The notes beneath the pieces are model-generated. The model saw only the letters and a list, made by a program, of their open reading frames with translations. It was not told the DNA's origin and did not search any database. A DNA stretch of 64,000 bases from Sialis fuliginosa (lineage: Eukaryota; Arthropoda; Insecta; Megaloptera; Sialidae): positions 15,934,001-15,998,000 of the forward strand of contig OY540812.1 in the NCBI GenBank assembly GCA_961205875.1. The letters are read 5' to 3'. Position numbers and translations under genes: made by a program. Below are positions 18,701-49,675 of this stretch, piece after piece (position 1 is the first letter of the stretch; every line of letters starts with the position of its first letter).

Positions 18701-21700
18701 CACTCGAGTGCAATATTAAAAAGTAAAGTAAGCTTTGGAAAAAAGAATACTTGATGTTTAAAATTTTTATATTTATTAAAATTCGATTCTTATTTTGTTA
18801 ATGTATAACAGCAATGATGGCTTTAGGGAGGGAGGTTGGGCGACTGCTCTGGATTCCAGTTCAGAATGGGCGGCAAACGGCCACATGGAGAAAAACTGAT
18901 TTTTTTAGAAAAAAATGAAGAACAAAAAGAACTAGATACTCGTATAACTCAATGGGGCCACTCGTCGGACTGGCCCCATATATCCTTGGTCTAAATAATC
19001 ATTTGTTGATACTGGAAATTGATAACACGTATAATATTAAACCGGGTGTCAATTTTAAGTACTGTATAACAATGGGTTCTCAAAATATTAAATAAAACTA
19101 ATTTAAGACAAAATAATTGAGAGTCTGTATTTTTTTTCTTAATAAACTGTTCAAGTTTGTTCCACCTGATATGACTCTTCCTGCATATTTAAAGATTTTT
19201 TAAAATTTTCAGTTGTTCTGAATTTTTTAATAATACTATAGTCCTAAATATGTTTTCTTCAAAAATTATCTAAACTTAGCTAATAGTATTAAGATAATGC
19301 AGTATTGTTTATAATACATGCACTATAATAGTAACGTATTGGTGCTTTTATTTCGAGTAGTTGGCATTCTTTTATCTGTAAAAATTTATACAATCTTCTC
19401 TATTGTGAATATGTCTAGATGCTGTTTGTGATTTATCATATTAATAATTTGACACTAGAAATGTAGTTAGATTCGATCAAAAAGAACGTATGATATTTAA
19501 ACAATTTAAAACAATCGATCTAACGAAGCTGTAAAAATTACCATACATATATTGTTTTAATTATTATTATTAATTAAAATAAATAAAAATAATAAATTAC
19601 ATTACAGGAAAGTTGGAAGTGTGCAATTCTATTACATATTCTCTAATATTATTGTTTTGTTTACTCAAACTTACATGCGTGGCATGAGCAAAAAATTATA
19701 ATAAAAAACATTACGTTTACATATGTTTTCAATTAAAATGGGATCAATACAACTCAATATTCTTACCAGGGCAAGGTTTATCAAAACACTTTTGTCTCTC
19801 GTGGGTAGAACCAAGACAATCTTCCCCACCATGAGCTGGTTTTGGGTTATTACATACTCGGACTCGTTCTTTCATTCCATATCCACATGTTTCTGAGCAA
19901 TGACTCCATTCGTACCAAGGGGACCTATAGTAATAAAACAAAATAATAAAATTGATTATTCGGTATGTTTAATTTTTTTAACATACCAACCACCATTTAT
20001 GGCACATGATTTTAAATTACATAATTGTAATTCATACGAAGGTCCAATGCATTCTTTACCACCGTGAGCAGGTTTCGGTAAATTACAGTACCGAACACGT
20101 CTTTGCTGCCCTTCATCGCAAGTTTTACTACATTCAGACCATTTAGTCCATTGACTCCAGCCACCGTCAACTAAAGGGAAGATTTTTTAAATTATCTATT
20201 AAATATTATTACTAATATTAAACGATTCTTTATTTTAAAATGATCATAACAAATATCTTTAATAGTCCATAAATGTAATGATATATGCAGAGGTTATTTA
20301 AGTGTGTAGTTGTAGATTATTTCTGCAGTTCTAAAAATGATTGTTGTAAAAGTCAATTTGTCCAGTTGAAAGTTATAAAATATATTATATATATAAAAAA
20401 TATACTACAAAAAAGGCACATCCAGTTGAAAAATTACAAGTAGAAAGCAAAAAAAAGAGGAAAATGTGCAGTTGTAAAATTTTCTTAAAATAACCCCTGT
20501 ATATATGTAACAATATTCAATTCCGGCCGTATTTGCCGATATTTTAAAATTTTATTTGTACTTTCTACTAAGAGTTTCATAAATAATAAATAATTTAATT
20601 TAATTTAATTTATTATTATTTATTAAAAAATATTTTTTTAAATTCAGGTTCCGCCTCTAGTTATAATAATAAATAATAATTTATTTTACCTTCAACAGTC
20701 ACATATTAAGTATAAATAGTAAATACAAGTGTTTAATTCCTCTCTTCTTTAACAGAATTTGAATGCCATCTTATTTAAAAATTAAAGTAAACTATTCCTA
20801 CAAAACAGCAAACTTTATGCCCTGATTTTAAAATTCACAATGTATACCTGACACTTGAATTTTAATTTCTTTAACTCGAAACCCTTGACTGTTGGTTGCA
20901 GTACATGTGTACACTCCTGTGTCCATTGAAAGTGATTTGGGTATTACAACTTCTTTTCCTTCTTTATTTATTAGTATAGTTGGAATGTATGATAAAGCAA
21001 CTCCGTCCTTCTTCCAACCAATTGTCGGTTTTGGATTACCCAATACATCGCATTCTAGTACAGCCTTTTCTCCTATTTTAATAACCAGATGTTCTGGTTC
21101 AGGTTTTAGTATTGCAGGAGGGCCTATAAATGATACATAGTAAAGTATGTATTCCAGGTATACTGTAGTGATAGTTGTAAATATCGCGATATACATAATA
21201 TTATGAATTGTTTGTTTATACATATAATTTACTTTACTTCGGCTGTCTGTTCTATGTAATATAATATAATAATTTATTTTACCTTCAACAGTCACATGAT
21301 AAGTTCTTTTTGTTGATCCCATTTTATTAGAAGCTGAACAAATATAAGTACCACTGTCTGTATATTCAGCAGAAGTAAAGACAAGTTTTTGATTCCTCTC
21401 TTCTTTAACAATCCTTGAGCTTGTTACAACTAATACGCCGTTTAGATTCCACTGAATTGTAGGTTCCGTTCCAGTAACAAAACATTCCAAAACTGCTCGA
21501 TCTTTGTATTTTACGACCAAATTTATTGTTTTGTGACTATCTATAATTTTCGGCGGCTCTATATTTTTATTGAAATACTGTTGATTTATCGTGTTATATA
21601 TTTTATATATTCAGTTAAAATACCTGGTGGTTGAGAGTCTATTGAACCTTTAATAACTCTCTTTAACGGATGATTACTTAAGTCCTTACCATGTACCTAA

Positions 21701-23723
21701 AATGCGTTGTCAAATAACTTTTAGTTTAATAAATTATGTATGTAATTTTAATTTAATTTTAATATTCGAAATACCATAATCTTAAACAGATTAATTGTAG
21801 GTGGTGTGAAAGGTGGAATAACATATAGACCTGGAGTTGATGTTGGAGTGATACTAAATGTGCTATGTACAGAGCCATCTGTTCCTAATATTTCTACTTT
21901 CTCCGGTATCCATCCTTTGAAAGGTGTAGGCTTAATGTAAAGATAATTGGGTACATCTGAAATATAAAGCTTTAGATTTTTTATTTGAATCATTATAACT
22001 ACTAATTATAACCTTTAACAGGTTTATCAAAAGTATCCTCCATAGACGTTACTGGTTTCTGTGAAAATCCGAATTTGAAATTCATCTCACTTACTGCAGA
22101 AACTTGTACACTTGAGTGAAGAGAATTTGCGTTCACAGTACAAATCCATTTACCTATCATAGGAGAATCTATTTTTACTACCTAAAAACCGTACATAACT
22201 AAATATTATACATCCTCTGTTTTTTGGTGATTCAAAATAACAATAATAATTATTATTATGTAAATGTTTCAATACCTTTGTACTATCTAATGACAACACT
22301 GATACCCCACTTTGCACATTGCCATTCGGATCTTTAATTTGAATTGAGGGATTTTTCCCTGTTACGACAATCGTCATTTTTCCGATGTCTTTATTAATAT
22401 CTACAATCAGTGTTGTTGATCGTCCACTGACTAGAGATTGAGAAATTATATAAACAGTCCTAGCATTCAAAGACTCCCTAACAAAATTGAGTACCTATTA
22501 ATGATAGAACAGGTTCAAATTAATGTTTCTTTGATTTGCTTTTGATTATAACTTACCTCCTTGACTTCTGTTTTCTTTCCTAATTCAAAAAGCTCTCCTC
22601 CTGTACTTTTAGAAATCGTCACGTAGGGTGTAAATTGAGGATCTGATGGATTATTTGTACATTTTCCAGTTAATACAAAGGTTACCTAAATATTAAATGC
22701 AAAATCATTTACTATTTACATATTTGGATTTTAAATTGAAAATATACATATATTTTATATTGTACATACCTGGCAATTTTTCTTAAGAGCTAAAGTATTA
22801 ACTTCAGAAAAAATATGATAATCTTTAGCAGACGCATCTGTAAATACGTAGATATATGACCCAGGTAGCACTGCTTCTACAGCTTGTTTGATTCCGCCCA
22901 TTGCTAACTCTGGACAATCACCTCCCCCATGAACCCGTATTGCATTTAATTTTTGGCGAAATAAAGCAGTATCTTCGGTAATTAGTACCGGAGTTATACC
23001 TAAAGTAAAATAATTATATATTATTTATAAATATCAATACATTAACGGAAACTTAAATAAAAACCTGGGTCGTTGAAAACAGATAAAATCCAGTTTTTTA
23101 TAGGATTATCGCTACGGGAAAGGAATTCATCCATTATTTTCTGTGATCCAATTCTCACATCATCGATATCGTCACCCATAGATCCAGTATCATCAATTAC
23201 AAATGCAAGAGACACTTGATTTCTGAACAAAATAAATAAAACAATCATAGTTATTAATAGAAAATTAATTATACAATAATACTAAACAATCCTATTAAAA
23301 TGTTCATATTTTAATTTAGTATAAATTGTATAATTAATAAAATTGAGTAACATTAAAATATTATAATATAAAATACTCTTCAAAAAATCGAAGAACAAAA
23401 TTAGGTATACATTATAAATTATCGGGTATAAAAAATTAAATTAATTTTAATCCTTGTCAAATTATTCACTTCTTATAACATTTTCAAACAATTTCAATGG
23501 CAATTCAAAATAAACTAATAGGTAAATGAATATATATATTTATATATATATATATATATATATATTCATATTTGTGTATTTAAACTATTAAAAAATATAT
23601 ATACATATACTTATTTGAAACAACATACATTAAAGTTATTTTGTCTACACCATCTTCACATTGAACCGAATATAAAATTAAACAAATAATAATACATATA
23701 TAACCACTAAATTCTTCCTTCAT
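12766..23723 (-). CDS. Short hemicentin-like protein, copy A (5 TSP1)
   Basis: Secreted matrix or adhesion protein, 1171 residues in 22 exons (ends given high to low): 23723-23629, 23222-23065, 22999-22770, 22685-22557, 22494-22276, 22181-22013, 21956-21775, 21696-21624, 21558-21283, 21123-20848, 20170-19987, 19924-19767, 17837-17654, 17459-17302, 17223-17084, 16970-16797, 16677-16539, 16302-16165, 16085-15956, 15510-15353, 14523-14398, 12785-12766. Order: signal peptide (1 to about 22), VWA with the hemicentin-type DDTGSM metal site and [16 protein letters not shown], post-VWA region to about 418, two Ig domains (to 602), five TSP1 repeats (603-877), G2F barrel (about 878-1123), calcium-binding EGF starting DIDEC (1123-1165), tail AKPESE. 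Compared with copy B it lacks exactly five TSP1 exons (289 residues), in frame. Classical hemicentins have dozens of Ig domains; this one has two. Confidence 0.9.
13373..14055. mobile_element. Palindromic MITE in last intron of copy A
   Basis: The arms are near-perfect inverted repeats of about 330 bp (for example GTCTCAAGAAGAACATATGC on the left with its complement near 13935). The outer ends meet AAATTCGTTTAAAATT on the left and its complement on the right. The open frame at 13694-13969 is arm sequence, not a gene. No equivalent is seen in the corresponding copy B intron. Confidence 0.8.
14758..14840. repeat. Long hairpin in copy A intron
   Basis: GTAAAATGATAGTTTTTCGC onward, containing TCGCACGAGTGTGA and TTGTTAG, is mirrored on the other side of a short CCGAGA loop by CTAACAATCACACGAGTGCG and TACATTTTAC. 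The stem is about 33 bp with a few mismatches. It is probably a tiny foldback element. Confidence 0.65.
18295..19186. mobile_element. TIR element inserted in copy A only
   Basis: The inverted ends share TCATATCAGGTGGAACAAA (18301-18319, complement near 19159-19177), bordered by TA. It lies in the intron between TSP1 exons 2 and 3 of copy A; the matching intron of copy B is only about 300 bp and lacks it. A secondary palindrome (CGGTTTAGTATTAA and complement) is at 18478-18514. Related sequence without clear ends is at about 49060-49290. Confidence 0.7.
20300..20520. repeat. Dispersed repeat shared with 41330-41490
   Basis: Both places share phrases such as GTGTGTAGTTGTAG / GTGTGTAATTGTAG, TTTCTGCAGTT, GCAGTTG and TTCTTAAAATAAC in the same order. 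The ends are not clear and no coding potential is seen. Confidence 0.45.
23537..23575. repeat. TA microsatellite
   Basis: An interrupted (TA)n run in the first intron of copy A. Confidence 0.9.
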
Positions 23724-27455: not shown

Positions 27456-30400
27456 TTACTCCGATTCAGGTTTTGCTGAAAAGAGAAAAGAAAAACTATA
27501 ATAATATATTTGTTTATTACTGTGGATATAGATAGCAAATATAGTATACAAAATTCAATTATGAATACTTATAAATTACTGAGTTTGGCATTTTGATATT
27601 AGAGCGCTCATTATCAATCAGTTATTTTTTATCATCCGCAAGAGCAGAATTTCAAAATAGTTCCTCTACGATCGCACGTGCGGAACAACTACATATATAT
27701 ATTATAATATAATATATATTATATATGCAATATGTATGTATTATATCAGGGATGGGGAACTTTCTTTCACCTAGAGACCATTCTTTTCGTCGATGACAGA
27801 CATCATATTATATATAAATGCTACGTTTTGGGCCAACTTTCTTTATAAAATAAGGTGATAAAAACCACAAATAAAGCGGGGGAAGTTGGGCTCATCTTCG
27901 GAAAGAAATTTTTATGAAAGGTACCTTTTTTAAAATATAATTTTGAAACCGTTTTACAGTGGGTTTTACCAGTTGTATTTTGTATTTTTATCTAGGAAAT
28001 ACGTTGGTCTGTAAGAGCACTTCAAATTTACATTATTACTTTCACGATATAACATAATAATATATAAAATTAGTTAATTTATATTATTTTACACACCGAA
28101 AAATCAATAGTTCATTAATTTAGAATCAGGTACATTTTGCTTCCTTGCCATATCGAAGATACGAGAAGCTTTATGATCGTTTTAAATGAGAAAAAAATTG
28201 CACTCCAATTTCAAAATTGTAACTTGATCTTTCCGTTTCAAGTCAAGAAAAACACTTTTCGTTCCGTGTCTGTCTGTCTGTCTTTCTATCTCTTGAATCC
28301 TTATCATACACATAACTCATGAAGCACTATTAATGAAACTTGGTTAGTTGGTTGGGCCAGACTTGAGGACGGTATCATTTCAAAATCATTGAAATCGTGT
28401 GTAAGGGGGAGCAGTGTCATTCAAAAATAGTTATTTTTTCAAGTCATCTCAAGAATGATACATATTACGTGACAATTTTATAGTTTTTTTTTGTAGATCA
28501 TTCGATTTTCTATAATAAACGTTTGTTGTAAAATATTCCCTTGTAAAGTTTTATCTCAATTTGCTCTAAAAATCGTCATTTGTTATTTACAATTGCTATT
28601 TACTTTGACATATTAAATGTCATTTTGACAGACTCATATTTATGTAACTAATATTAACCAATATACTATAATGAAACTTTCAAATTACACATTGCTTACA
28701 TTATTTTCGCATTTTACATACCTTTTCTTTCACAAGTACGACCATCAGATCGTAATAAATAATTCTCATAACATTCACAGTGATAACTTCCAATTGTATT
28801 TATACACATTTGTTCACATGGTCTGTTTCTAACGCACTCATCAATATCTAAAATATAAAACAGTGTAAAATATGATGAAATAAATTGTAACATCCTTTAA
28901 AATAAACGTCAAATTAATTTAGTTCCGAATCTACTTGAGATACCCAAACCCCACTTTGCAAAATTTTGCGTTATTGCCATAACCGTGCTTATGAATAATG
29001 CATAAGGTACTAGCTGAGGGGCTCGTGAGGACAGGAGCTTCACGAATTGGGTGTTGATTGAGAAAAAAGTTTTCTCTGACTCGCCCACTATAAAATTTTT
29101 GCGCATTGAGTCTCAAAATGTCTAAAAACGGCCCTGGTTATTTTTTAAGTAAAATACTTAAAACAATATTCTGCTTTGAACCGATAGTTTCCGCATTTAC
29201 GTCCTTCAAGTAACTGTTTTTCTTCTAAAGGAGAATTTTGCATCGTTCCAATATACGTCGCGCATTTCCAGAACGAATTCACGACACAAAGTGAGTTATG
29301 AGTGAAAAATAAACATTTTAATACACAGTAGAGATCTATTTTAGCGTTTATTTTTTTACTAAAATAAAATTTTTATTAATTGATAGGAACTTTCTGAAGT
29401 TTTTCTAATCCGATTTTTTTTATTAAGAGATTTCAAAATCTGAGATAGAGAACTGTAATTTCTTTGCGATTATAATAAATACTCGTATATACACGTTAAC
29501 CACAATATAACAATCTCCCTGAATCGACTTCATAAAAAGTCAGTCTGCTAAGTTTAAGTATCCAATATATGTAAAGGTATATGTTAAAATACATACCGTT
29601 ACAAAAATTGTTCACAGAATCTTTTTGGAATCCTGATGGACAAGAACTTAATTTAGCTTTTGAAATCTTTGTACCCATTTCAAAAAAGTATGGTTTTTCA
29701 AAATCCCTTTTCGAATTTTTTATTCGTGACTTAGTCAACTTTTGAATAAGTGGTCTAAAAGAAGAACAGTTATGTTATATAATTAAATGTAACTAAAATA
29801 ATAATATAATAAACGGGATTTTTAATATAGAGCTAAACATTCACTTGTTATTAGCTCCAATTTATTAAGTGAACTGTTTGTAAATATATGGATATTGATT
29901 ATTGTAACATACATTTTCATAATTATTATATTTATTTTTAACAATATAATAATTTAGTCACATAACTATGTATTTAAGAATTGATAAAGTATAAATATGT
30001 ATAACTAAAAATTATAATAATAGAGATTCTTAATGCAAAGAAAAATTTAATTTAATATAAGCTATAATTTTGTAAATGATTTTATTTTTAACAATATAAT
30101 AATTTAGCCAAGTTAAGAAATATTCAAGTATTACCTACTAAAGTACAAACATTAATATAATTATAATATGAAATGTTTGTAACACTAGGATTAACCATAA
30201 CTGTAAAATTTATTTATAATACTTACGGCATAAATGTTTCAGATGGTGTATAAGTAATTAAATGATTCATGTTGAATTTTATATCGTATTTATTAATTTT
30301 AATTTGATTGTTCGAATTAGAAAATATTTTGCCAGATCCTATTAAGATATGTTTTTCTAAAATACAAATATAGTATGTTTCATAATTATGTAGGTACGTC

Positions 30401-33400
30401 TTACCTATACTTCATTTATTGACTTCAAAACAAACCTTCATTAACATTAAATTTTATTCTTGATGTATAGTCAGTAACTGGAAAATTTCCGTTTATTTCA
30501 ACTTCAATTCGTAGAGATCTATCACTATCTAATCCGTAACCAACTTGTTTTAAATGCAGTTTATGGTTATCACCTAAAAATTAAAATTAATAACTGAATT
30601 TAACTTTATTAATTACATCGCTTAACTTTTACTCTTTTTAAGTCATTTTACTGACAATAAGTGTACAATTTAATTTTAAAAATATACGTTTTTCATTTTT
30701 AATAAATTACGTGTCGAAATAAAATAATATAATGAATATTTTTTTAGCGGAATTTATATGTGGTAAAAAAAAGGTATACCTAATAAAAAAAATTTTACTT
30801 ACCCGTTTGAAAAGTGATATTTGTATTGGTTTCAAAATATCCGTTAGTTAATGAAAATCCATTCAGTGCTTCCTCATCCTCCCAAGCTGAGCTCCAACCC
30901 ACACTTTGCAGCAAGAAAGGTAAATGAGGAAACCATTCATTCTTTAAAAAGTAGAATAAAGATGTGTTTAATACAATAAGGAATATATGTTTCAAAAACA
31001 AAACAAAATACATTTTGTACATAATTTCACTACCAAGATTTATGTCAGTTGTCTAGTTATTAGTAGGAAAGAAATAAAATCCACACCTTACCTCTTTATC
31101 AATTATATCTCTTTCCATTCTTGTTACTATTGTCATTTTTTTCTTTAAAATTTGCATAACAGGATTAACTGTCAAATATGTGTCAATGTCTATATCGTTC
31201 AAAGTGCCGTAAAGATGTATTCCAATTGATTTTGGCGGGCATGGTTTTTTTTGACACTCATCCCACTAAAAATGATTGATTTATTTTAAAATTCGTTTTG
31301 TTTAATGCTTATTAAAGAAATCGTTATAAAGAAAATATAACATGTATTGTATGTATTTAATATGTATTTAAATAAATATTTTATTAATACCTCTACTGTA
31401 TCTCCAATGCAATTCCTACCTCCATATTTTGGTTCTGGATTTGTACATGTTCTATTTCGTTTAATACTTCCAGTTCCACATGCAACTGAACAAGCACCCC
31501 ACTCACCCCATTCACTCCACCCACCATGAACTATAATGATCAATATGTATGTATTCAAACTTATATAAAAAAATATATTTCTTTTTCATAAGGTTCTTAA
31601 AAATTAACTTACTCGGACATACAGGACCATTACAAACTCGTACATTTTGAAATTGTCCTTCGCATTTTTTACCATTGTACGCTGGTGAAGGGTTATTACA
31701 AGAACGTTTTCTATACTGTACTCCCTTTTCACAAGTTGTTGAGCAAGTTGTCCAGTCACTCCACTCGGACCTTAAGTATAGTGTTATATTTTATATTCAC
31801 GCTTTATCTTTGATATGAATCAAATTAAAAATATTCATAAGCCTTGAATACAAAATAAAATATATATGTATATATTTTCTGCACGCTCTTATAGTCGTTT
31901 TAATGTTTCATTTTTCAAATAGATTCATAAAATTATGTAAACGATAAACAAGCCGAAAATACATATAATGATAAATGAACAATTAATTGCAAATTACAAT
32001 ACGTTTCATATAAATACTTTGAAAGATAGAAAAAAGAGGAATAAGAAATATTATTCTCATACCATCCACCATCTATTGGACATCTTCTAATTATGCATCG
32101 ATTATTTTCGTATAAAGGTCCGTTACAATCCCTACCATCATGCTGTGGTGGTGGATTCGTACATGTTCTAGTGCGTTGTCTCCAACCGTATCCACAAGAT
32201 GCACTACATATAGACCAGTCACTCCAATTGCTCAAGCCTCCATCAACTAAAAAGAAAATTGTGCATTAGAAAATTAAATAATTTACCAAAAAGAGATATA
32301 ATAAAATGAAGATATATAACAAATTTAAAATTTAATCTCTTCACTAGTAAACTAAAAAAAACACAGTAACGTTACAATTTTTTTTAATACTTTAGTTAGT
32401 AATATAAATTACATTATAGGAAGGTTGAAAGTGTACAATGTATTACATATTCTCTTGTATTATTGTTTTGTTTACTCAAACTTACATGAGTGACATGAGT
32501 TAAAAACATTAATAAAAATGAGATCAATACAACTCAATATTCTTACCAGGGCAAGGTTTATCAAAACACCGTTGTCTCTCGTGGGTAGAACCAGGACAAT
32601 CTTCCCCACCATGAGCTGGTTTTGGATTATTACATACTCGGACTCGTTCTTTCATTCCATATCCACATGTTTCTGAGCAATGACTCCATTCGTACCAAGG
32701 GGACCTATAGTAATAAGATAAAATAATAAAATTGATTATTCGGTATGCTTAATTTTTTTAACATACCAGCCACCATTTATGGCACATGATTTTAAATTAC
32801 ATAATTGTAATTCATACGAAGGTCCAATGCATTCTTTACCACCGTGAGCAGGTTTCGGTAAATTACAGTATCGAACACGTCTTTGCTGCCCTTCATCGCA
32901 AGTTTTACTACATTCAGACCATTTAGTCCATTGACTCCAGCCACCGTCAACTAAAGAGAAGATTTTTTTAAATTATCTATTAAATATTTTGAATAATATT
33001 AAACGATTCATTATTTTAAAATGATCATAACAAATATCTTTTATACCTCATAAATATAATGATATACAGTGTATTCCAAGTTTATTAAACCATAGGAAAT
33101 TTAACATGGGGATAATTAGAAGTGTTGTAGTAACCTTTGATCGAATTTAATGATGTGTGATTGGTGCATTTTGAAATGCCGCCACAAAATTTAGTAAAAT
33201 TATCATTAGTATTTTGTTTTCAATTTTATATCTGCCAAAAAATATTATAATAATTTTATCTAGGATGCTTACTTTAATTTCATTAATGTATTTTATTCTT
33301 TATTAAAGTTGAAAACAAAATACTGTTGATTAATTTAAAATTTATTAGTTAGTTTCGAGGCGGCATTTCAAAATGCACCAGTCACACATTGTTAAATTTG

Positions 33401-36400
33401 ACCAAAGGCTACTACAACATTTCTAATTGTCTCCATGTTAAATTTCCTATGGCTTAATCAACTTGGAGTACACTGTATGTATTTTTTTTTTAATTTAAAT
33501 AAAAAATATAAGTTTCTATTCGAACAAATAACGTTGACCTTATTAAACCTTAAAACGTCCAAGAAAACAAATATTAATAACGGTATTTCGTTTCCTCCTA
33601 AAATCCAAACAACTTTTATTTGAAACATTTTTTCTTAAATATTTATTTTCAAAAGTATTCAGGTGGTAATTTTTGTAAATTAACACACGGTATATTTCTC
33701 TTGATAATCTAAAAATATTTATATTTCTAAAGTGCATAAAAAATATCTGCTGTAAAATCTTCGAAAAAAGCAGAAAAACAAAATATCTATTAAAATTCAG
33801 GAACGATATTTTCAAAAATATCTTATATTTAAAAAATGTTAAATTAAGGACGGAAAAGTTAGCTAAAAGAACAATATTCCTACCAGGGCAAGGTCTATCA
33901 AAACATCGTTGTCTCTCGGTAAGAGGTCCAGGACAAATTTTACCTCCATGAGCTGGTTTTGGATTATTACATTCTCGAATTCTTTCTCGGAATCCATATC
34001 CACAGGTTGCCGAACAATGACTCCAATCATTCCATGGTGACCTATATAAGGACAATATAATAATATAATTTCAGATAATACCTCTTTATGAACTTACCAG
34101 CCACCATTTATAGCGCAAGGTTTTATATTACATAATTTTAATTCATATGTTGCTCCTACGCAGTTTTTACCTCCATGAGCTGGTTTTGGTGAATTACAGT
34201 ACCTAAGACGTCTTTGTTGTCCCTCATCACAAGTTTTACTACATTCAGACCATTCGGTCCATGGACTCCAACCACCATCAACTATAATTTAAAATAATAC
34301 ATAAATATTTTTTTACATTTAACAATCAGTATTGAAATAAAAGCATTATTATTATTTTACCATGACATGGATGTTCGTTACAGTCGGCAACTGCTTCTTC
34401 ACTACCAATACATTTTCCTTCAACGGCTGTTATAGAAGATGGTTTTAAGCACGTTCTACTTCTTGTTTTTTTACCTCCACCACACGATACGGAACACTCA
34501 GTCCATTTCGACCAATCAGTCCTATATGATTGGTTAATAAAATATATTTGATTAATATAATAATATATTAAATATTAAGACAACTTTATACAGCTAAGTA
34601 AGTTGTTCATGTGATATAATGGAAAATATCTCACAATTACCCTTTTATACTAATTTTCGTTCTTAGCAGAAAATATTCATAACCATAAATGTATAAATAA
34701 ATAGTTCGTTAATTATTCGACTTCAACTTTTGATAAAGTATTTTAAAATATAATACTACATTCCTATTAATTTATTGAAAGATATTTACCACTCGTATAT
34801 GCACATTCTGGACATACAAGGTTCTGTTTCGTAAGGATCGCCTTCACATGTTCTGCCTCCTCCTTTTGGTTCAGGATTATTACATTCTCTTCCACGACTC
34901 TTCTCTCCAATTGCACAAGTTCTGGAGCATGGAGTCCATTCTGTCCAATCACTCCATCCTCCATCAATCTGAATATTATTAAGAAAATATAACGAAGCTA
35001 TCCAATAAATGTTTAATTTCACATTTTCAAAATAGATAGAAGAAAGAGAAACAAGCTATTCTTAATAGGGAATTTATATTAATAAAATTGCATTTTTCAT
35101 TAATACACATTTCAACATAAAAACAAAATTTCAATTGTTGGAAAGCACATATCGCCGGATAAATGTATCGTGGTAAACTTTACCAATTTGATGTAAAAAA
35201 TATTAGTTACGTCTTTATAGAAACGGATTAGAATTGCTTCGATAATAATCGATGCACTAGAAAATAGTTTCTTATTGGGCAGCATCGATAGTAGATTTTC
35301 GTATACAAAAAAATTGTCACTATACATAGTTTTATGTAAGATAAGACATAAAAACAAATATTGAGTAATGGTTTCAAAAATATGCGGTTTTTTTTTAAAT
35401 ACTTTAATATTTTTAAACTTAAAATTGCTATTTAAAAAGTTTATTTACCTGCAGCAATGTTTATCTTAAAATTACAAAAATTGAATAGTTTTCTATTTAC
35501 TTACTGTACATTCTTTCAAATTACACACAGTACTTTCATTATTAGAACCTGAACATTCACTGTCTACTAAACTTTTCTCTTTTTCTTTGATACGAGAAGG
35601 TAATATACAGTGTCTAGTTCTGGTCATAATACCGTCATCACAGGTTTTGGAACAACTGCTCCAAGTTCCCCAATAACTCCACTTTGGCTCTAAAACAACA
35701 ACATATTTCTCAAATCAAAACAAAAGTGTATTAACTATTCATACAAAACCGCAACATTAAGGGCATAAAGCCCTTAATGTTGCCGCAAAGAAATAGATTT
35801 TAATCTTAAAAAACAAACTGGGCTTTCAGATGACCTCGAAGTCCCCCACCAAATTTTAAAAAGATATAGCTACTCGATTGCCAAGATTAATAAGTCACCC
35901 TGTATAGAATTTGAATGCAATCTGATTTAAAAATACATAATGTATACCTGACACTTCAATTGTAATTTCTTTAACTCGAGATCCTTGACTATTGGTTGCA
36001 GTACATGTGTATACTCCTGAGTCCATTGAAAGTGATTTGGGTATTACAACTTCTTTTCTTTCTTTATTTATTAGTGTAGTTGGAATGTATGATAAAGCAA
36101 CTCCGTCCTTTTTCCAATCAATTGTCGGTTTTGGATTACCCGATACATCGCATTCTAGTACAGCCTTTTCTCCTATTTTAATAACCTGATGTTCTGGTTC
36201 AGGTTTTAGTATTGCAGGAGGGCCTATAAATGATAGTAAAGTATGTATTCTAGGTACTGATAGTTGTAAATATCGCGATATACATTATATTATGAATTGT
36301 TTGCTTATACATATAATTTAGTTTACTTCAGCTGTCTGTTCTATGTAATATAATATAATAATTTATTTTACCTTCAACAGACACATGATAAGTTCTTTTT

Positions 36401-38746
36401 GTTGATCCCATTTTATTAGAAGCTGAACAAATATAAGTACCACTGTCTGTATATTCAGCAGAAGTAAAGACAAGTTTTTGATTCCTCTCTTCTTTAACAA
36501 TTCTTGAGCTTATTACAACTAGTACGCCGTTTACATTCCACTGAATTGTTGGTTCCGTTCCAGTAACAAAACATTCCAAAACTGCTCGATCTTTGTATTT
36601 TACAACCAAATTTATTGTTTTGTGGCTATCTATGATTTTCGGTGGCTCTATAATTTTATTGAAATACTGTTAATTTATCGTGTTATATATTTTATATATT
36701 CAGTTAAAATACCTGGTGGTTGAGAGTCTATTGAACCTTTAATAACTCTCTTTAACGGATGATTACTTAAGTCCTTACCATGTACCTAAAATGCGTTGTC
36801 AAATAACTTTTAGTTTAATAAATTATGTATGTAATGTTAATTTTTGAAATACCATAATTTTAAACAGATTAATTGTAGGTGGTGTGAAAGGTGGAATAAC
36901 ATATAGACCTGGAGTTGATGTTGGAGTGATACTAAATGTGCTATGTACAGAGCCATCTGTTCCTAATATTTCTACTTTCTCCGGTATCCATCCTTTGAAA
37001 GGTGTAGGCTTAATGTAAAGATAATTGGGTACATCTGAAATATAAAGCATTAGTTTTTTTTATTTGAATCATTATAACTACTAATTATAACCTTTAACAG
37101 GTTTATCAAAAGTATCCTCCATAGACGTTACTGATTTCTGTGAAAATCCGAATTTGAAATTCATCTCACTAACTGCAGAAACCTGGACACTTGAGTGAAG
37201 AGAATTTGCGTTCACAGTACAAATCCATTTGCCTATCATAGGAGAATCTATTTTTACTACCTAAAAATCGTACACAACTAAATATTATACATCCTCTGTT
37301 TTTTGGTGATTTAAAATAATAATTATTATTATTATGTAAATGTTTCAATACCTTTGTACTATCTAATGACAACACTGATACCCCACTTTGCACATTGCCA
37401 TTCGGATCTTTAATTTGAATTGAAGGATTTTTCCCTGTTACGACAACCGTCATTTTTCCAATGTCTTTATTAATATCTACAATCAGTGTTGTTGATCGCC
37501 CACTGACTAGAGATTGAGAAATTATATAAACAGTCCTAGCATTCAAAGACTCTCTTACAAAATTGAGTACCTATTAATGATAGAATAGGTTTAAATTAAT
37601 GTTTCTTTGAATTGCTTTTAATTATAACTTACCTCCTTGACTTCTGTTTTCTTTCCTAATTCAAAAAGCTCTCCTCCTGTACTTTTAGAAATCGTCACGT
37701 AGGGTGTAAATTGAGGATCTGATGGATTATTTGTACATTTTCCAGTTAACACAAAAGTTACCTTGTATTAAATGCAAAATCATTTACTATTTACATATTT
37801 GGATTTTAAATTGAAAATATACATATATTTTATATTGTACATACCTGGCAATTTTTCTTAAGAGCTAAAGTATTAACTTCAGAAAAAATATGATAATCTT
37901 TAGCAGACGCATCTGTAAATACGTAGATATATGACCCAGGTAGCGCTGCTTCTACAGCTTGTTTGATTCCGCCCATTGCTAACTCTGGACAATCACCTCC
38001 CCCATGAACCCGTATTGCATTTAATTTTTGGCGAAATAAAGCAGTATCTTCGGTAATTAGTACCGGAGTTATACCTAAAGTAAAATAATTATATATTATT
38101 TATAAATATCAATACATTAACGGAAACTTAAATAAAAACCTGGGTCGTTGAAAACAGATAAAATCCAGTTTTTTATAGGATTATCGCTACGGGAAAGGAA
38201 TTCATCCATTATTTTCTGTGATCCGATTCTCACATCAGCGATATCGTCACCCATAGATCCAGTATCATCAATTACAAATGCAAGAGACACTTGTTTTCTG
38301 AAGAAAATAAGAAAGATAGTAATATGTACATATTTTGATTAAATACAAGTATTAATAAAATATGGTGTCATTAAAAAATTATGATATTAAATATTTATCA
38401 AAGTAATCTTGAATTACAAAATTATAGAACATAAATTAGCTGGTATACAAGAATGAAACTAATTTCATCCTAGTCTAATTCTTCAGTTCATTTAATATAT
38501 TAACAATTGACAATTAAAAAAACAACTAAATGAATTTAAATGAATTTAATGTGCATGTTTATGTTATTAAACTATTAATACAAAAACGAATATATATATC
38601 ATAAATTGAAATTGTGTAAGATACATTTAAAATAATAAATGCACAACATACATTAAAGTTATTTTAGCTGCACCATCTTCACATTGAACAGAATATAAAA
38701 TTAAACAAATAATAATACATATATAACCACTAAATTCTTTCTTCAT
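27456..38746 (-). CDS. Short hemicentin-like protein, copy B (10 TSP1)
   Basis: Secreted matrix or adhesion protein, 1460 residues in 27 exons: 38746-38652, 38297-38140, 38074-37845, 37761-37633, 37570-37352, 37260-37092, 37034-36853, 36785-36713, 36647-36372, 36223-35948, 35689-35505, 34968-34790, 34521-34361, 34281-34098, 34041-33884, 32950-32767, 32704-32547, 32246-32063, 31770-31613, 31530-31391, 31265-31092, 30941-30803, 30573-30436, 30356-30227, 29754-29597, 28847-28722, 27475-27456. Order: signal peptide, VWA with DDTGSM, post-VWA region, two Ig domains (to 602), ten TSP1 repeats (603-1166), G2F (about 1167-1412), EGF (1412-1454), tail AKPESE. Exon lengths equal copy A except for five extra TSP1 exons. 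The pair 34281-33884 repeats the pair 32950-32547, an internal duplication. In the exon 32063-32246 the first Trp of the usual DGGW is Leu. Confidence 0.92.
28130..28560. repeat. Dispersed repeat, shared with 58590-59000
   Basis: Both copies share CCATATCGAAGATACG, GATCGTTTTAAATGA, ACACTTTTCGT, a TGTCTGTCTG run, ACATAACTCATG or CGCATAACTCATG, and GTGTGTAAGGGGGA in order. It lies in the last intron of copy B. Ends are unclear; family unknown. Confidence 0.65.
33065..33477. mobile_element. TIR MITE between TSP1 exons of copy B
   Basis: The left end TACAGTGTATTCCAAGTT and right end AACTTGGAGTACACTGTA are inverted repeats that continue inward for over 100 bp (GGTGCATTTTGAAATGCCGC and its complement). 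TA at the ends suits a Tc1/mariner-type target. It sits in the intron between TSP1 exons 34041-33884 and 32950-32767. Confidence 0.75.
35751..35783. repeat. Perfect 14-bp hairpin
   Basis: GCAACATTAAGGGC, loop ATAAA, GCCCTTAATGTTGC. It lies in the copy B intron between the second Ig exon and the first TSP1 exon. Confidence 0.8.
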
Positions 38747-41685: not shown

Positions 41686-44600
41686 CTAATCTGTGTACTC
41701 CCCTTCCAATGTTCCTCCACCTGAAATAATTTTTAAAAAAATGTATAATTTTCAAATAGTTTTATTTCAACATAGACACGTTTTAATTTTACCTGACTTG
41801 TTACATTTGTAGCCATCCTCATCTAGTTCAAAATCGTCTTCACACTCACAATGATATCCACCAACATCATTGAAACACTGTTGTTCACACGAGTTAGTGG
41901 AAGCACACTCATCGATGTCTTAAATAAAAAATAAAAAAATTTGTTTCATAACACAGCTACACAAAAAAAAAACCCACCTATACAACATTGTAGTATTGGT
42001 CGAGCATAGTCGAAATCCAAATTTTTGAAACTTTTTGCTTACCAGTTTTTTTTTATTCGAGCTTGAATTTAAGGTTTAGGTTGAATTTTTCCAAATTGGC
42101 TAAACAAAAAATTCAAGCTCAAACAAAAAAAAAACAGGTAAACAAAAAATTCCAAAAATTGGATTTCGACTATGCTCGACCAATACTACAATACTATATA
42201 GGTCGCTTTTTTGGCTCCGCACTTTTTTTTGTGTAGCTGTGTAATTTTTGAATTAAGAATTTATTTCCTTTCTATTAATAAACCTGAATGCTTTAATAAA
42301 TATTTCACATTACTATTTACATATTAGTTTTTATATGAGTAGAATATTAATTTTTACTGACCGTTACAATACTTATTTTTAGCATCCTTAATAAATCCTT
42401 TTGGGCATGTAGAGTCATTAAAAATTGACACTTTCGTACCCATACTCGTTGAAATATCTTTACCACTCTTATTATTTGATACATTGGCTTTTAAGAATGA
42501 TTGAACAAGTGGCCTGAAATTATAGGAACAGATAATTGCTTTCTAACAAAATATAATTTTTTATATTTTTGTACTAACAATTTTGGAGAATCTGACGAAT
42601 CGTAAGATGTTAAATGGGTAATGCTGTATTTTATTGGAACATCGTTAATATCAACTTTTCCTTCACTTGATGAATATAATTTTCCTTCTCCTATTTGATA
42701 AAATTTCTCTAAAAAAATAACGTAATTTTAATAATATGATACAATCATACAAAAATATGCATTTGACAAATTATGTACCTGATAAATATGGAAACACAAA
42801 TTTCGTTCCATATTTTGCATCAGGAACATTTCCTTTAACAAATACACCTATTTTCAAACTTCCATTCGATACTCCAGAACCTCTTTGCTTTAAATTTAAT
42901 GATTGGCCTGTAAGTTCAATACAAAATCATCATAAGAATATTTTTTGCAAGAGCTTTTATTAAGTAAATCTTTACAAAAAGTAAACATAAATAAACTTTT
43001 AATGTTTACCTGTATTAAAGTCAATATCTGTTTCCATATTGAAAACACCTCTCGTGATAGACAAACCGTTGAAAGCACCGTCGTCTTCCCAAGCCAAATT
43101 CCAACCAACACTTTGTAACAATAGTGGCAGATGAGGGAACCAGTGGTCCTAATAATTTTTTATTATTATCGATGTTTAAATTATAAATAATATTTATATT
43201 CGCATCAAAATTGTATATATATATTAAAAAAAACTCACGGGATTATGGATGATGTCTTTTGTTTTTACTTGGAATCTAGATACTCCATCTTTCATAACAG
43301 GTATGATTTTGATGACTTCATCGAAACTTTCATCATTCAGCGTCCCATAGATATTAACCTCTATTTCTTTAGGTGGGCATATTTTATTCATACATGATTT
43401 TGTCTGCAAAAATTGATTTTTATTTACATTCAAATACATATGAAATGAATATTATATTTACTTCGGAGGGATCTCCAGAACAATCCCTTCCACCAAACTT
43501 CGGTGCAGGGTTGTCACATTTCCTGTTTCTTGTTATAAGTCCATATCCACAAGTAACACTGCATTCATTCCATGTACTCCAACTGCTCCAATTTCCGTGA
43601 ACTTATAATTAAAGAAAACATGTTTAATTTTTGAAGATTTGTCAAGAATACAATTTAAATAAAGAAATATATCTATTTTCTATTTTGAACAGTAAAATTT
43701 AACATACTTGGACAAGGTGGACCTGAACATTTTTCGACTTCCTGTCTTGCACCAATACAAGTTTTTCCTCCAATTGATGGATTAATACAATATCTCCTTC
43801 TATATTTATTTCCTACTCCACAACTGACTGTACAAGGAGACCATTCCTCCCAATTTGACCTATAATTGTTAACATTTTAACTAATAATTCAAATCGTATG
43901 TCTAACTAACATATTGAAATAAGAATCTTAATTTATATTTAAAGGATAAAATACAATAAATATTAGATATTTATCTAAAAACAAAAATTTCTTACCATCC
44001 GACAGATTCATCACATTTCTTTACGAAACATGTTTTCTTCGTAGTTGATTTTCCTACGCAGTTTTTACCACCATACATAGGAGCTGGTTTCGTACAACTT
44101 CTTTTACGTTCTTTGGATCCTAAACCACAAGGCTCGCTACAAGGCGACCAACGACTCCAAGATGTCCAACCCCCATCAACTGTTATATTTATAATATATT
44201 ATTTATTTATAATAGTTTAATTATTAAGCTTTATACTTTTTATGTAGAGTAATTAATATAAAACATTACATAACTGTTACTGGTAGCAATATAAATATTT
44301 GATATAAAAATTAATTAAAATTTATATATTTTTTCATTTTATAATTTTTACCTGCGCAATGTTGTACATTACACTTTTCTGTTTCTGTTGGGTTGCCAAT
44401 ACAACTTCCGCTCTCTTCATTTCCATCTTCTGGTATCAAACATGTCCTACTTCTAGTTTTTGTGCCTCCACCACAAGTCTTTGTGCATTCAGACCATTTT
44501 GTCCATTCATTCCTGTAAAAATGTATCATGTTTAAACTTTTTTTGTACTTTATCAATAAAATATTAAAGTTTTTATAGAATCCAGGTGGTACATTACCAA

Positions 44601-47600
44601 GTTTTTAATTTAATGATATAAAAATATCACAAAAATTTTTTTAGGCAATTCGTATATAATTTGAAATTAATTACCATTTGTACACACAACGATTAAGTAA
44701 ACAGTCTTCTATCATGACAGGTAAACCTTCACAATATAGTCCTTTGCCTTTAGGCGCAGGATTGTTGCATGCTCGGGAACGTTGTTTCCAGCCTTTACCA
44801 CAAGTTACAGAACATTGACCATATTCACTCCATTCGCTCCATCCTCCGTCAACCTAAACAATAATTTAAATGAAAAAATTCAATGAAAGATTTAAAAAAT
44901 TGTATTACATATACATAAGTGTATGACTAACTTTAACACGTTTGAATATTAAGATCATAAATTGTTATTGTTGGATTTTGTATTAAATTAAATGTTTATT
45001 AAAAGCATTAAAGGTATTCATAAACATTCCATGCCAATATTTAATACATACAGATAGGAATTTTCGTTTTTATGATAATTATTATTTAAATAAACAAAAT
45101 GTTGTATACGCACATTACAATCTGTTACTTTACACTCTGCTATTTCTTTATCAAACCCGGAGCATTCATTAGAAGATAGACGTCGTTCATTTTTCTTAGA
45201 TGGTAAATAACAGAATCTACTTCGAGATTTAACACCCGCATCACATGTTGTAGAACATTGTGTCCATTCATCCCAGTCGCTCCATTTTGGTTCTGAAATG
45301 TCAAAAATATATATTATTATAGTTCATATTATGATTTCTTATAATGAAATAAATATGTTCAATTTTTTCAATTTATTAATTCTTTCAATTATTTTTTAAT
45401 TTTAATTTTATTTTTTTAAGTACTCCACAGTAACTAAGTATTGAATATCTAATAAATATAATTATTTTTTAATGAAAAATACGTTAAAATGTACGTAACA
45501 GGTATTTACCGCTCTACGAGCTCCAAAATTTACGAGTTTGCACAGAACGTTAACATTTTTTCCAACTTTACTAATTACCTCGTAAATTCAGCAAATACTA
45601 AGGTACTGGCACCAGTCTTGGATAATACCCCAGTGTTGGAAACATATTTAATTAAATGTAATCAATTATAAATATTTGTTGATATTTGATTACTATCATT
45701 ACTGAATCATAATTTATACACTTAACTGTAAAACAGCTTAATTTGATGACAAAACTGGGTGTCAAAATGGTGGATATTTAAGCTAATTAGTAGTGTAATC
45801 TTTTTATTATCTATTATATTATCATAACATCTGCTTTACATTGTTTCAAATTTTACGATTATTTATTTTATAACTTTTGTAATGTAGTACTTGTCATTTT
45901 GTAATCATTAGCAAGTACCCATCACTAGGTGCTCATTACTGGTTTTTCTTTATCCATTACTGGAGAAAAAAGGCTATAATTAAAAAAAACTTTATTTGCG
46001 GATTTTAGTAACTTAATTGATTTAAGTACTTGGTGTCTTAGTAGAGTTCATGAGAATTTCAAAAAAGAAACCCAACAAGATCAAAAACAGTATGTATACC
46101 TTATTCTTAAAGCGACCAAGACTGGTCCCAGTACCTTATTCGTGTATTTATATGTATTACCTACCTGATACTTCTAAAACAACATTCTTCGTTTGGGTTC
46201 CATACTTGTTGTTAGCTGTACATATATAAGTGCCAGAATTTCCTACAGCAGCTTTACTTATTAACACAGTTCCTAGATTACTAGCAGTAGTAACTCCATC
46301 TTTTTTCCAGTCAATAGTTGGTTTGGGTTTACCGTCTACATCACAAGTAAAAGATATTTTTTCACCAACTTTTATTAAATGATACTCTGGTGTAGGATTC
46401 TTAATAACAGCTGGCCCTATAAACAACAGATTTGTTTTATCACTCGTAATTTACACTGATAAATAATATATATGTTATATAAGACAATACCTTCGATTAA
46501 AACCTGGAAAATTTTTTTGGCAGATCCCAAATTATTTGTAGCTGAACATTCATATGTATCACTATCTGAATATTCTGCTTTCGATATACTTATTATTTGG
46601 TTTCGATTTTCCCTTAAAAGACGTTTATTATTGATAGACGCGAAAGTTGATTCACCTTTCTTCCAATGTATTATGGGTTTCGTACCCGTGACGAAACATT
46701 CTAAATTTATCTTTTCACCGACCTTCACCGTAATTGTGACAGTTTTATCATTATTTAATATTTTTATAGGCTCTAAAAAAAGTTTCATACAAAATTTCAC
46801 ATTTTATACATAAAATTTATATTCAAAATCATACCAGGTGGTTGAGTTTTTATGACACCCTTTGTAACTCTTTGTACTGGATTTCCTTTTGAATCTTTTC
46901 CAAATACCTAAATTTATTGTAAAATTGTAATATCAAATAAAAATTTAAAAAGATGTAAAGATATATAAATTTCATACCACAACTCGAACTTCATTAGGTG
47001 GAATAAATTCTGGTGTTACAAATAAACCTGTAGTTCCGGATGGTTTAAGATTAGCTTTATGAATAATTTTTCCATCAAGTCCTATAATGTGTACTCTTTC
47101 TGGTGTCCAAGTGTTTTTAGGTTTTGGTTCAATATAAAGATAGTTATTTATGCCTAAAACAAAATTTAAACCATGTTTATTATTGTAATTGTCATGTGGA
47201 AATTTAAATACCCAAAATCATTAATTAATTCTTTGAGCGGTATTATATAGTCGTATCGGTACAGTGAGACTCTATAGATCAAAATACAGCCATACAACTT
47301 CACCCAGTTTTTACGTTATTTTTTTTTATATAAATCAATCAATGATATTTATAATGAAAAAAAGATACATAAAATAAATTCTCAGTTAGTATATGCTGAA
47401 AAATTAACTCACTAATCAAAGGGTTAAAGAAATTTATTTTTATTGTATGGCAAAATTTCAAAACATATATTTTTAAAATTTTAAGACAGAGGTTATAATT
47501 GAATAGAAAATTTTTTATTGGTTGATTTACCTTCGACTGGTCTATCAAATGTTTCGGCTATTGAATTTACTGGACTTGGCGAGAATCCTATGTTGAAATC

Positions 47601-49675
47601 TATGTCACTGTTAACAATTATTTGCCCTTCAGATATTATAGAATTTGCGCTAACAGTTATTTTCCATTTTCCTATTTTTGGATTAGGAACCGTTTTTACC
47701 TATAACAAATTCATGTAAAGTTATTATTTATATATCGATAACACGTGTTTATATACAAAATATTAAGCTTATACAATGAAAAAAATATAGTTACTTTTGT
47801 GGTAGGTAAAGACATAATTGTTTTTCCTTCTACAGTTACACCAGTAGGATCTTTTATCACGATATTGGGGCTTTGTCCTGTTACAACAACTATAAGTTTC
47901 GTTACATCGTCGTTAATATCGACTTCTAAGACTGTTGCAACACCTGGTTGAAGTTTTTGTTTTACAACATGAACATTTTTAGTGTCCAATGAATCTTTTA
48001 CAAAATTCAACACCTGCAAAAATTATAATAAATAAATAATTAACTATATGTAAATATTATTGAAATTAAATATAAGAGTGCATTTAAAAGTACAATTTAT
48101 TAAATACTAGCGCATTCGACCCGGTGTTACCCGGGGATACATTTTAATTTGTAATAAACCTATTAAACATTGTTTTCATTTATCTCTAACTATTAATGAA
48201 AACCGGAATAAAATCAGATATAAAATATAAATTATAAGTACACACTAAAAGATAGTCTTAAAAATTTACCTGTTGGACTTCTGTTTTTCGCCTTAGTTCA
48301 AATAATTCTCCTCCTGTAGCTTTTGCTAAAGATAAGTATGGAAGAAATTGAGGATCGTTTGGATTTCTTGAACATTTTCCAGTCAATACAAACGTTACCT
48401 ATAAAAACAATTCTTATTTTTTAAATAATCCTTATTTAGGAAAATAAATACATCTCTACCAAAATATAAATTTTGTCATAATATTTAAATACAATACTAT
48501 TACTTACTTGACAATTTTTTTTTACAGCTAATGCTTCAACATCTTTCGCAAGATTATAATCCTTGGCAGATGCATCTGTGAACACATAGATATAAGATCC
48601 AGGTAACGCTGATTCCACAGCTTGTTTGATTCCACCTATCGATAACTCTGGACAATCGCCACCTCTCTTCACGGTAATTTCATCGATTTTCTTTTTAAAT
48701 AGTTCTGTATCTTCGGTAACGAATACAGGTGGTATATCTATAAGAATTAAATTATATAAAATTAAATTTTGCAAACAAAATCGTAGAGCAAAAAATAAAA
48801 TTTTAAATATTAGTTTTAATTAACTATTAATTTTGTTAAATGATTAGTTTTCAAGCTGAAATTTTTAATGCGACCAAGCAGGCCTGTTTATGATTTTTTT
48901 CATCGAGTGATAGTTTTTTTAATTATTAGTTTAAAAAATTGTCCTTTTTATCGATTCGCTTTTTTTTAAATCAACTGAATTTAAATCGAGAAAAAAATTA
49001 AAAATAGAGATCACAAGTCAAAAGCTTCAAAATGATTATTGATCTGCAACATTTTAACCAAATACAGGATGATTTACAACTATACATATAGTGTAAACAA
49101 AATTTACAGTAGATCGAGAATGTCATTTTAACCAAAAAACTTTATGTGATCATGTGTCCGGAAATTTTTTGTGAGAGAGCTACAGCCTTACAAAAATTTT
49201 ATTCAAAATTAGTGTTTATTTAATAACTAGAAAACTTATTATGGTATACAGTTATGAAATTTGTAGTAGGTCCGCCGGTTTTTACCTAGTTTTTGTTGTT
49301 GACACATTACTAATGTAAATATATAATAAAATCACCTGGATCATTGAAAACAGAGAGAATCCATGTTTTGATTGGATTATGTTCACGACTTAAAAATTCT
49401 TCCATAATTCTTCTAGTTCCAATTCTCACAGCCGCAATATCATTTCTCATAGATCCCGTGTTATCGATCACGAAAACCAATGAAACTTGTTTGCTTTTAA
49501 ATAAATAGTTATAATAAATTAAACTGACCAACCAAGTTTTATTCTTTAAAACTAAATTTTAATAAATCCATAATAACAAAATAACTTACATGACTTTAAC
49601 ATTTGTTTCATCTTGGGCATTAATACACAGAATAGTTAAACTTACAAAAAAATATAACCACACGCATTTCCCCAT
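41686..49675 (-). CDS. Short hemicentin-like protein, copy C (6 TSP1)
   Basis: Secreted matrix or adhesion protein, 1214 residues in 23 exons: 49675-49590, 49493-49336, 48737-48508, 48398-48270, 48013-47795, 47699-47531, 47153-46978, 46907-46835, 46772-46491, 46416-46165, 45292-45114, 44853-44675, 44512-44352, 44179-43996, 43859-43708, 43601-43462, 43403-43239, 43148-43010, 42907-42779, 42708-42579, 42513-42362, 41918-41793, 41720-41686. Order: signal peptide MGKCVWLYFFVSLTILCINA, VWA with DNTGSM and GGDCPELSIGGIKQA (about 31-205), post-VWA region to 413, Ig1 (414-507), Ig2 (508-591), six TSP1 (591-923), G2F (about 924-1161), EGF DIDECAST... (1162-1203), tail ending GEYTD. Six TSP1, G2F and EGF match the C-terminal plan of classical hemicentin, so C looks closest to the ancestral form of this cluster. 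Protein and intron sequence are clearly diverged from A and B, though exon phases are conserved. Confidence 0.92.
41952..42241. mobile_element. MITE with CACAGCTACAC termini in copy C
   Basis: The ends CACAGCTACACAAAAAAAA and TTTTTTTGTGTAGCTGTG are inverted repeats, flanked by TAA on both sides, which suits PIF/Harbinger. Internal arms include GTCGAGCATAGTCGAAATCC and its complement. It lies in the intron before the EGF exon and is related to 23988-24373. Confidence 0.82.
45600..46137. mobile_element. Uninterrupted AAGGTACTGG-type MITE in copy C intron
   Basis: The ends AAGGTACTGGCACCAGTCTTGG-like (22 bp, 45600-45621) and its near complement at 46116-46137 bound a 538 bp element. The same family, in opposite orientation and disrupted, is at 1817-4060. 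It sits in the intron between the second Ig exon and first TSP1 exon. Confidence 0.8.
48108..48180. repeat. Possible repeat fragment, GC-richer patch
   Basis: CTAGCGCATTCGACCCGGTG and TTACCCGGGGATAC stand out from the surrounding AT-rich intron and resemble a widespread arthropod interspersed repeat. Ends cannot be set from this copy alone. Confidence 0.3.

Follow-up and report, generated by a model that had tools for sequence, protein, structure and literature searches.

Probable duplication and loss of phase-1-bounded exon blocks behind the differing TSP1 numbers of three tandem hemicentin-like genes in Sialis fuliginosa

Which events set the number of thrombospondin type 1 (TSP1) repeats in linked genes, and in what order did they take place? 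The question is raised by a stretch of 64,000 nucleotides from the megalopteran Sialis fuliginosa (GenBank assembly GCA_961205875.1, contig OY540812.1, positions 15,934,001 to 15,998,000 of the forward strand; hereafter the window), which contains a tandem array of three complete hemicentin-like genes arranged head to tail on the minus strand in the order C, B and A (contig 4). With the Pfam profile PF00090, TSP1 stretches number 10, 6 and 5 in B, C and A, respectively. It appears probable that the stack changed its length by the duplication and loss of exon blocks bounded by phase-1 introns, in the order of events proposed below. The three genes are as follows.

41686..49675, minus strand: gene C, 23 coding exons, 1214 amino acids, 6 TSP1 (spliced model with open frame; Pfam)
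27456..38746, minus strand: gene B, 27 coding exons, 1460 amino acids, 10 TSP1 (spliced model with open frame; Pfam)
12766..23723, minus strand: gene A, 22 coding exons, 1171 amino acids, 5 TSP1 (spliced model with open frame; Pfam)

The splice sites of the gene models (AG acceptor, GT donor) were inferred from the DNA sequence alone; each gene gives a single open frame terminated by a stop codon, and the phases are matched across the genes. An initial annotation of the window had placed in them six copies of a two-exon cassette encoding two TSP1 repeats, and the coordinates, lengths and phases of all six were recovered. The first exon is 184 bp long and runs from phase 1 to phase 2, the second is 158 bp long in A and B and 152 bp in C and runs from phase 2 to phase 1, with AG acceptors and GT donors, and two six-cysteine TSP1 repeats are encoded by each of these 1-2-1 pairs. 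The first exon encodes one TSP1 together with the opening bases of the next, the inner boundary lying inside the second TSP1, and in A and B the two exons add up to 184 + 158 = 342 bp, or two 57-codon units. As a unit, the pair is symmetric in phase, as had been claimed, since all six (6/6) are modules between two phase-1 introns (class 1-1).

The copy number of one, two and three in C, A and B, respectively, is correct for the 1-2-1 pairs, but it misses other TSP1 exons of C and B. Upstream of the 1-2-1 pairs in these two genes there is a pair of similar design (pair 0; 179 + 161 bp, phases 0-2-1), which runs from phase 0 to phase 1 and therefore is not of class 1-1, and ahead of pair 0 there is a single TSP1 exon; A has neither. 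The total number of TSP1 (6, 5 and 10 in C, A and B) does not follow the number of 1-2-1 pairs: A has two pairs and five TSP1, and C has one pair and six. The TSP1 exons, numbered by their counterparts across the three genes, are listed here.

45114..45292, minus strand: C E11, single TSP1 exon, phase 1 to 0
44675..44853, minus strand: C E12, first exon of pair 0, phase 0 to 2
44352..44512, minus strand: C E13, second exon of pair 0, phase 2 to 1
43996..44179, minus strand: C E14, first exon of the sole 1-2-1 pair, 184 bp
43708..43859, minus strand: C E15, second exon of the sole 1-2-1 pair, 152 bp
43462..43601, minus strand: C E20, last TSP1 exon
35505..35689, minus strand: B E11, single TSP1 exon, phase 1 to 0
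34790..34968, minus strand: B E12, first exon of pair 0, phase 0 to 2
34361..34521, minus strand: B E13, second exon of pair 0, phase 2 to 1
34098..34281, minus strand: B E14, first exon of pair 1, 184 bp
33884..34041, minus strand: B E15, second exon of pair 1, 158 bp
32767..32950, minus strand: B E16, first exon of pair 2, 184 bp, 83% identical to E14
32547..32704, minus strand: B E17, second exon of pair 2, 158 bp, 80% identical to E15
32063..32246, minus strand: B E18, first exon of pair 3, 184 bp
31613..31770, minus strand: B E19, second exon of pair 3, 158 bp
31391..31530, minus strand: B E20, last TSP1 exon
19987..20170, minus strand: A E16, first exon of the first pair, counterpart of B pair 2
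19767..19924, minus strand: A E17, second exon of the first pair
17654..17837, minus strand: A E18, first exon of the second pair, counterpart of B pair 3
17302..17459, minus strand: A E19, second exon of the second pair
17084..17223, minus strand: A E20, last TSP1 exon

Phase symmetry alone is weak evidence for modularity; between introns 8 and 20 of B, 28 of 78 exon blocks are frame-symmetric, which is about the third expected by chance. The relationships between the pairs are seen in their coding identity, from 28 comparisons of eight pairs. The first pair of A is identical to B pair 2 at 336/342 positions (98.2%), and the second pair of A to B pair 3 at 329/342; B pairs 1 and 2 agree at 280/342 (81.9%), the first pair of A and B pair 1 at 276/342, and the remaining 24 comparisons give 48.5-59.7%. 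In a DNA tree of the five pairs of A and B, the first pair of A groups with B pair 2 at 89/91 and the second with B pair 3 at 100/100. In the intron before the first pair of A, 116 bp match the end of B intron 15 at 90.5% identity, and B intron 13 matches over just 12-13 bp. Judged by its identity and its flanking intron, the first pair of A corresponds to B pair 2, and pair 1 was most likely present in A at an earlier time.

The two exons of B pairs 1 and 2 diverged alike (153/184 identical positions in the first, 127/158 in the second), which indicates that the two were probably copied as a whole pair. By the NG86 method, used for all values of this kind, synonymous divergence (dS) between B pairs 1 and 2 is 0.739 (0.438-1.232 in 200 bootstraps), and between A and B it is 0.064 for E2-E10, 0.054 for E16-17, 0.126 for E18-19 and 0.155 for E21-25, with 0.269 for E21 alone. 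Since the pairs within B are more diverged than the genes, the duplication that gave pairs 1 and 2 is most likely older than the A/B gene duplication. Non-synonymous divergence (dN) between pairs 1 and 2 is 0.118, a ratio to dS of about 0.16, as expected if both pairs were constrained. The first two pairs of B had earlier been called very alike; they do appear to be whole-pair duplicates, though old (81.9% identity, dS 0.74), and the likeness does not extend to pair 3, which is only 56.4 and 55.8% identical to pairs 1 and 2.

Exons E11 to E15 are missing from A as one block of 185 + 179 + 161 + 184 + 158 = 867 bp, or 289 codons. The block comprises the single TSP1 exon, the phase-0 pair and pair 1, and it is bounded by introns 10 and 15, both of phase 1. 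The second Ig exon of A (E10) is predicted from the sequence to splice in frame to E16, the counterpart of the first exon of B pair 2. The earlier proposal that cassettes can be gained or lost without damage to the frame is in part borne out by this frame-keeping loss, but the loss took five exons in one block instead of proceeding cassette by cassette. Its trace in A is a scar intron.

20171..20847, minus strand: scar intron of A, where E11-E15 are missing
20664..20754, minus strand: within the scar intron, remnant of Ig exon E9 together with the beginning of the E9 intron; two pieces, with 91.9% and 89.6% identity to A's own E9 region

The scar intron consists, in order, of the start of intron 10, the E9 relic from 20754, repeat-like stretches, and the end of intron 15 from 20285 on. 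The E9 filler at the scar points to end-joining or template-switching repair rather than to neat crossing-over between pairs. In B intron 15, a palindromic element resembling a miniature inverted-repeat transposable element, whose arms are inverted and whose ends carry TA, was noted by eye at about 33485-33062, and homology of the A scar intron to B resumes near the end of this element.

A proposed history of the array can be described as follows. An ancestor would have had a C-like stack of six TSP1, made up of the single TSP1 exon, the phase-0 pair, a 1-2-1 pair and the last TSP1. Extra 1-2-1 pairs would then have arisen in the A/B lineage, the youngest event being the whole-pair tandem duplication that gave B pairs 1 and 2, and a whole-gene duplication would have produced A and B. 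Subsequently, the block E11 to E15, flanked by phase-1 introns on both sides, would have dropped out of A in one piece, and conversion-like exchange would have held stretches of A and B close to identity. In the protein, the likely effect would be a TSP1 rod of altered length, shorter or longer, separating Ig from G2F.

Conversion-like exchange is suggested by the uneven identity of A and B. Their introns differ at 22/645 positions from E2 to E10, 13/177 around E16-E17 and 3/78 in intron 19; differences amount to 58/456 in parts of introns 17 and 18, 267/1309 from intron 20 to E25, and 186/684 in the 5' part (promoter side and intron 1). In a run test that pooled introns and third codon positions, included the poorly alignable 5' end, and left out the insert found only in intron 17 of A, the scar intron and further stretches that could not be aligned, the longest identical A/B run was 249 sites against a maximum of 91 in 1000 permutations. 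The test indicates a mosaic, conversion-like identity and not a measured tract. Because of this mosaic, A/B dates taken from the similar parts are minimum ages. An A-specific insertion of about 1.6 kb occupies 19591-17959 in intron 17.

Several points weigh against this history. The dS comparison carries more weight than the pair tree: approximately unbiased (AU) tests reject neither a clade of B pairs 1 and 2 (p 0.16) nor one of the first pair of A and B pair 1 (p 0.0985), and by themselves they leave the order of cassette and gene duplication undecided. Homology between the introns of pairs 1 and 2 is marginal, its score being reached by 25 of 500 shuffles. The cassette alignment and tree proposed as a check with the initial annotation recover the counterparts of the A pairs in B, but the placement of the C pair and of pair 3 is unsettled in the trees. 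If A and B stem from an older duplication that was homogenised by conversion, the pair duplication and the gene duplication could have occurred in the reverse order. Pair 1 would then have been gained in B after the A/B duplication, A would have lost only E11-E13, and conversion would have made the first pair of A nearly identical to B pair 2. The tree that is not rejected and the minimum ages of converted parts both agree with such a late gain; nevertheless it is unlikely, since the dS between B pairs 1 and 2, even at its lower bound, exceeds that of every A/B block measured, including the 3' part and E21. An assembly artefact, in which a misjoin of the similar genes A and B mimics exon loss or gain, might be suspected from the long near-identical stretches common to both. 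It is highly improbable, however, because the scar intron has unique junctions, repeats and an E9 relic with substitutions of its own, and because the introns of A and B differ by up to 20% in the 3' half.

It could also be supposed that a single cassette was copied in register one, two and three times, and was gained or lost singly to tune the TSP1 number. The like exon sizes and phases of the six 1-2-1 pairs speak for this, as does the whole-pair duplication of pairs 1 and 2. It is unlikely, however, since what A lost is a five-exon block and not one cassette, since the totals of TSP1 do not match the pair counts, and since the first repeat of B pair 3 is nearest to the second repeat of pair 1. 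Pair 3 is no closer to pairs 1 and 2 than is the C pair (58.0 and 56.0%); its first repeat agrees with the second repeat of pair 1 at 33 of 57 positions (56 letters compared) and with the first at 26, a difference with a column bootstrap of 0.043. When in-register grouping was forced, the AU p was 0.040 with the rows of A and B and 0.116 when C was added. In a search of the genome (392 Mb, 20 contigs; match counts are lower bounds) with pair 1, E18 of A and E18 of B both match pair 1 over its second repeat. These results are a hint rather than a proof that pair 3 arose otherwise than by simple copying in register; it could be accounted for by an older offset event or by conversion between repeats. 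In single-repeat trees of all 21 TSP1 (55 columns), many deep forks are unsettled. Duplication and loss of phase-1-bounded blocks remains the preferred reading.

The proteins in which this stack is found have the same domain order in A, B and C: VWA, a hemicentin galactose-binding-like domain, two Ig, the TSP1s, G2F and one EGF-like match, which in C is below its cut-off (Pfam). Scores in B, C and A, respectively, are 173.8, 173.0 and 172.2 bits for VWA (PF25106), which follows a putative signal peptide recognised by eye, 33.6, 33.3 and 34.4 bits for the galactose-binding-like domain (PF23560, cut-off 27), and 84.6, 74.5 and 92.4 bits for G2F, which lies downstream of the TSP1s. Just two Ig stretches (PF07679) are present per gene. 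EGF_CA has one match per gene, at 31.0 bits in B and 27.5 in A against a cut-off of 27, and at 24.9, below the cut-off, in C. Past the EGF, where a hemicentin, as a member of the fibulin family, would have a C-terminal fibulin-type module, no Pfam match was found at E 0.01 in A, B or C, and the protein ends 9 residues beyond it in A and B and 14 in C. Since neither a long Ig chain nor a fibulin-type end was found, the genes are called hemicentin-like and not hemicentin.

All 21 TSP1 repeats of the three genes have six cysteines; the CxxS/TCxxG pattern, as scripted, is present in 18/21 and two WxxW motifs in 19/21. Motifs of the WxxW type are glycosylation sites. Chance similarity of the TSP1 exons was ruled out by E-values down to 1.3e-13 for one exon. 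Pseudogene status was likewise ruled out, the frames being open in all three genes and dN lower than dS in 8/8 A/B blocks measured; in E26 the two are nearly equal (0.084 and 0.098).

Elsewhere in the window, repeat elements of similar look were noted by eye in C intron 25 (42260-41960) and upstream of A (24380-23960). Gene A may have a decayed second copy of its last exon and 3' region at 12414-12209 (77% identical to B 27476-27253). On the plus strand, an open frame at 7995-8342 resembles, by eye, the end of an ABC transporter ATPase domain, and several long asparagine-rich open frames adjoin gene C at 51348-54802, on the opposite strand to it.

Of at least 52 matches given by pair 1 across the genome, the best 7 lie in this array, and TSP1 matches are also found on other contigs. 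Three of at least four G2F matches lie in the array; the fourth is on contig 1, in a 3537-base locus whose sole scanned frame (from open frames of at least 90 amino acids) matched G2F only. Among known proteins, zebrafish Hmcn1 (PMC2855323) has a signal peptide, VWA, Ig, TSP1, nidogen G2 and EGF in the same order. It has six TSP1, as does gene C, whereas A and B have 5 and 10; it has 44 Ig and five EGF, compared with two Ig and one EGF-like match here, and a further C-terminal domain, of which none was found in A, B or C. About fifty Ig modules are given for hemicentin in a review (PMC3707829). Six TSP1 may be the older state, judging from two genes, gene C and zebrafish Hmcn1. The cement-gland proteins FCGS1-6 of the salmon louse are arthropod TSP1/EGF proteins with hemicentin-like BLAST hits and 2 to 25 TSP1; according to that study (PMC6947537), they have EGF and TSP1 only and are not considered true hemicentins by its authors, whereas A, B and C have VWA and Ig. 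The closest solved sequences to B pair 1 are the TSP1 arrays of properdin and thrombospondin-1 (PDB 1w0r and 7yyk; E 2e-61 and 2.8e-43), which are different proteins with only the TSP1 part in common.

The insertion of class 1-1 modules between phase-1 introns is established, and TSP1 is among the named examples (PMC3927616). According to PMC1553488, a two-domain unit is the commonest in domain repeat expansion generally, though exon shuffling is doubted there as the explanation of multi-domain units. Compared with these descriptions, the unit here has two exons, the second TSP1 spans the boundary between them, and a block has been lost from a linked paralogue. No report of exon-pair variation in hemicentin-like genes was found among the matches listed, many of which are without hemicentin, and this is not proof of absence from print. 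The case is a new example of a known process, the duplication and loss of class 1-1 modules.

If read correctly, the array provides a small, relatively dated case in which a TSP1 exon pair was doubled, then the gene, and one of the two gene copies shed half of the TSP1 stack that its sister has, without breaking the frame. The array also illustrates how counting one exon class (1, 2 and 3) misleads, since adding the phase-0 pair and the single exon changes the ranking of the genes by TSP1 number. More speculatively, and with little expectation that it will prove true, the linked genes might act as a reservoir in which conversion and block loss reshape the TSP1 stack, so that its length would differ between individuals or sister species and would set the reach of the protein. 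If the array does vary in populations, it would offer a natural series for testing the role of TSP1 number in hemicentin-like proteins.

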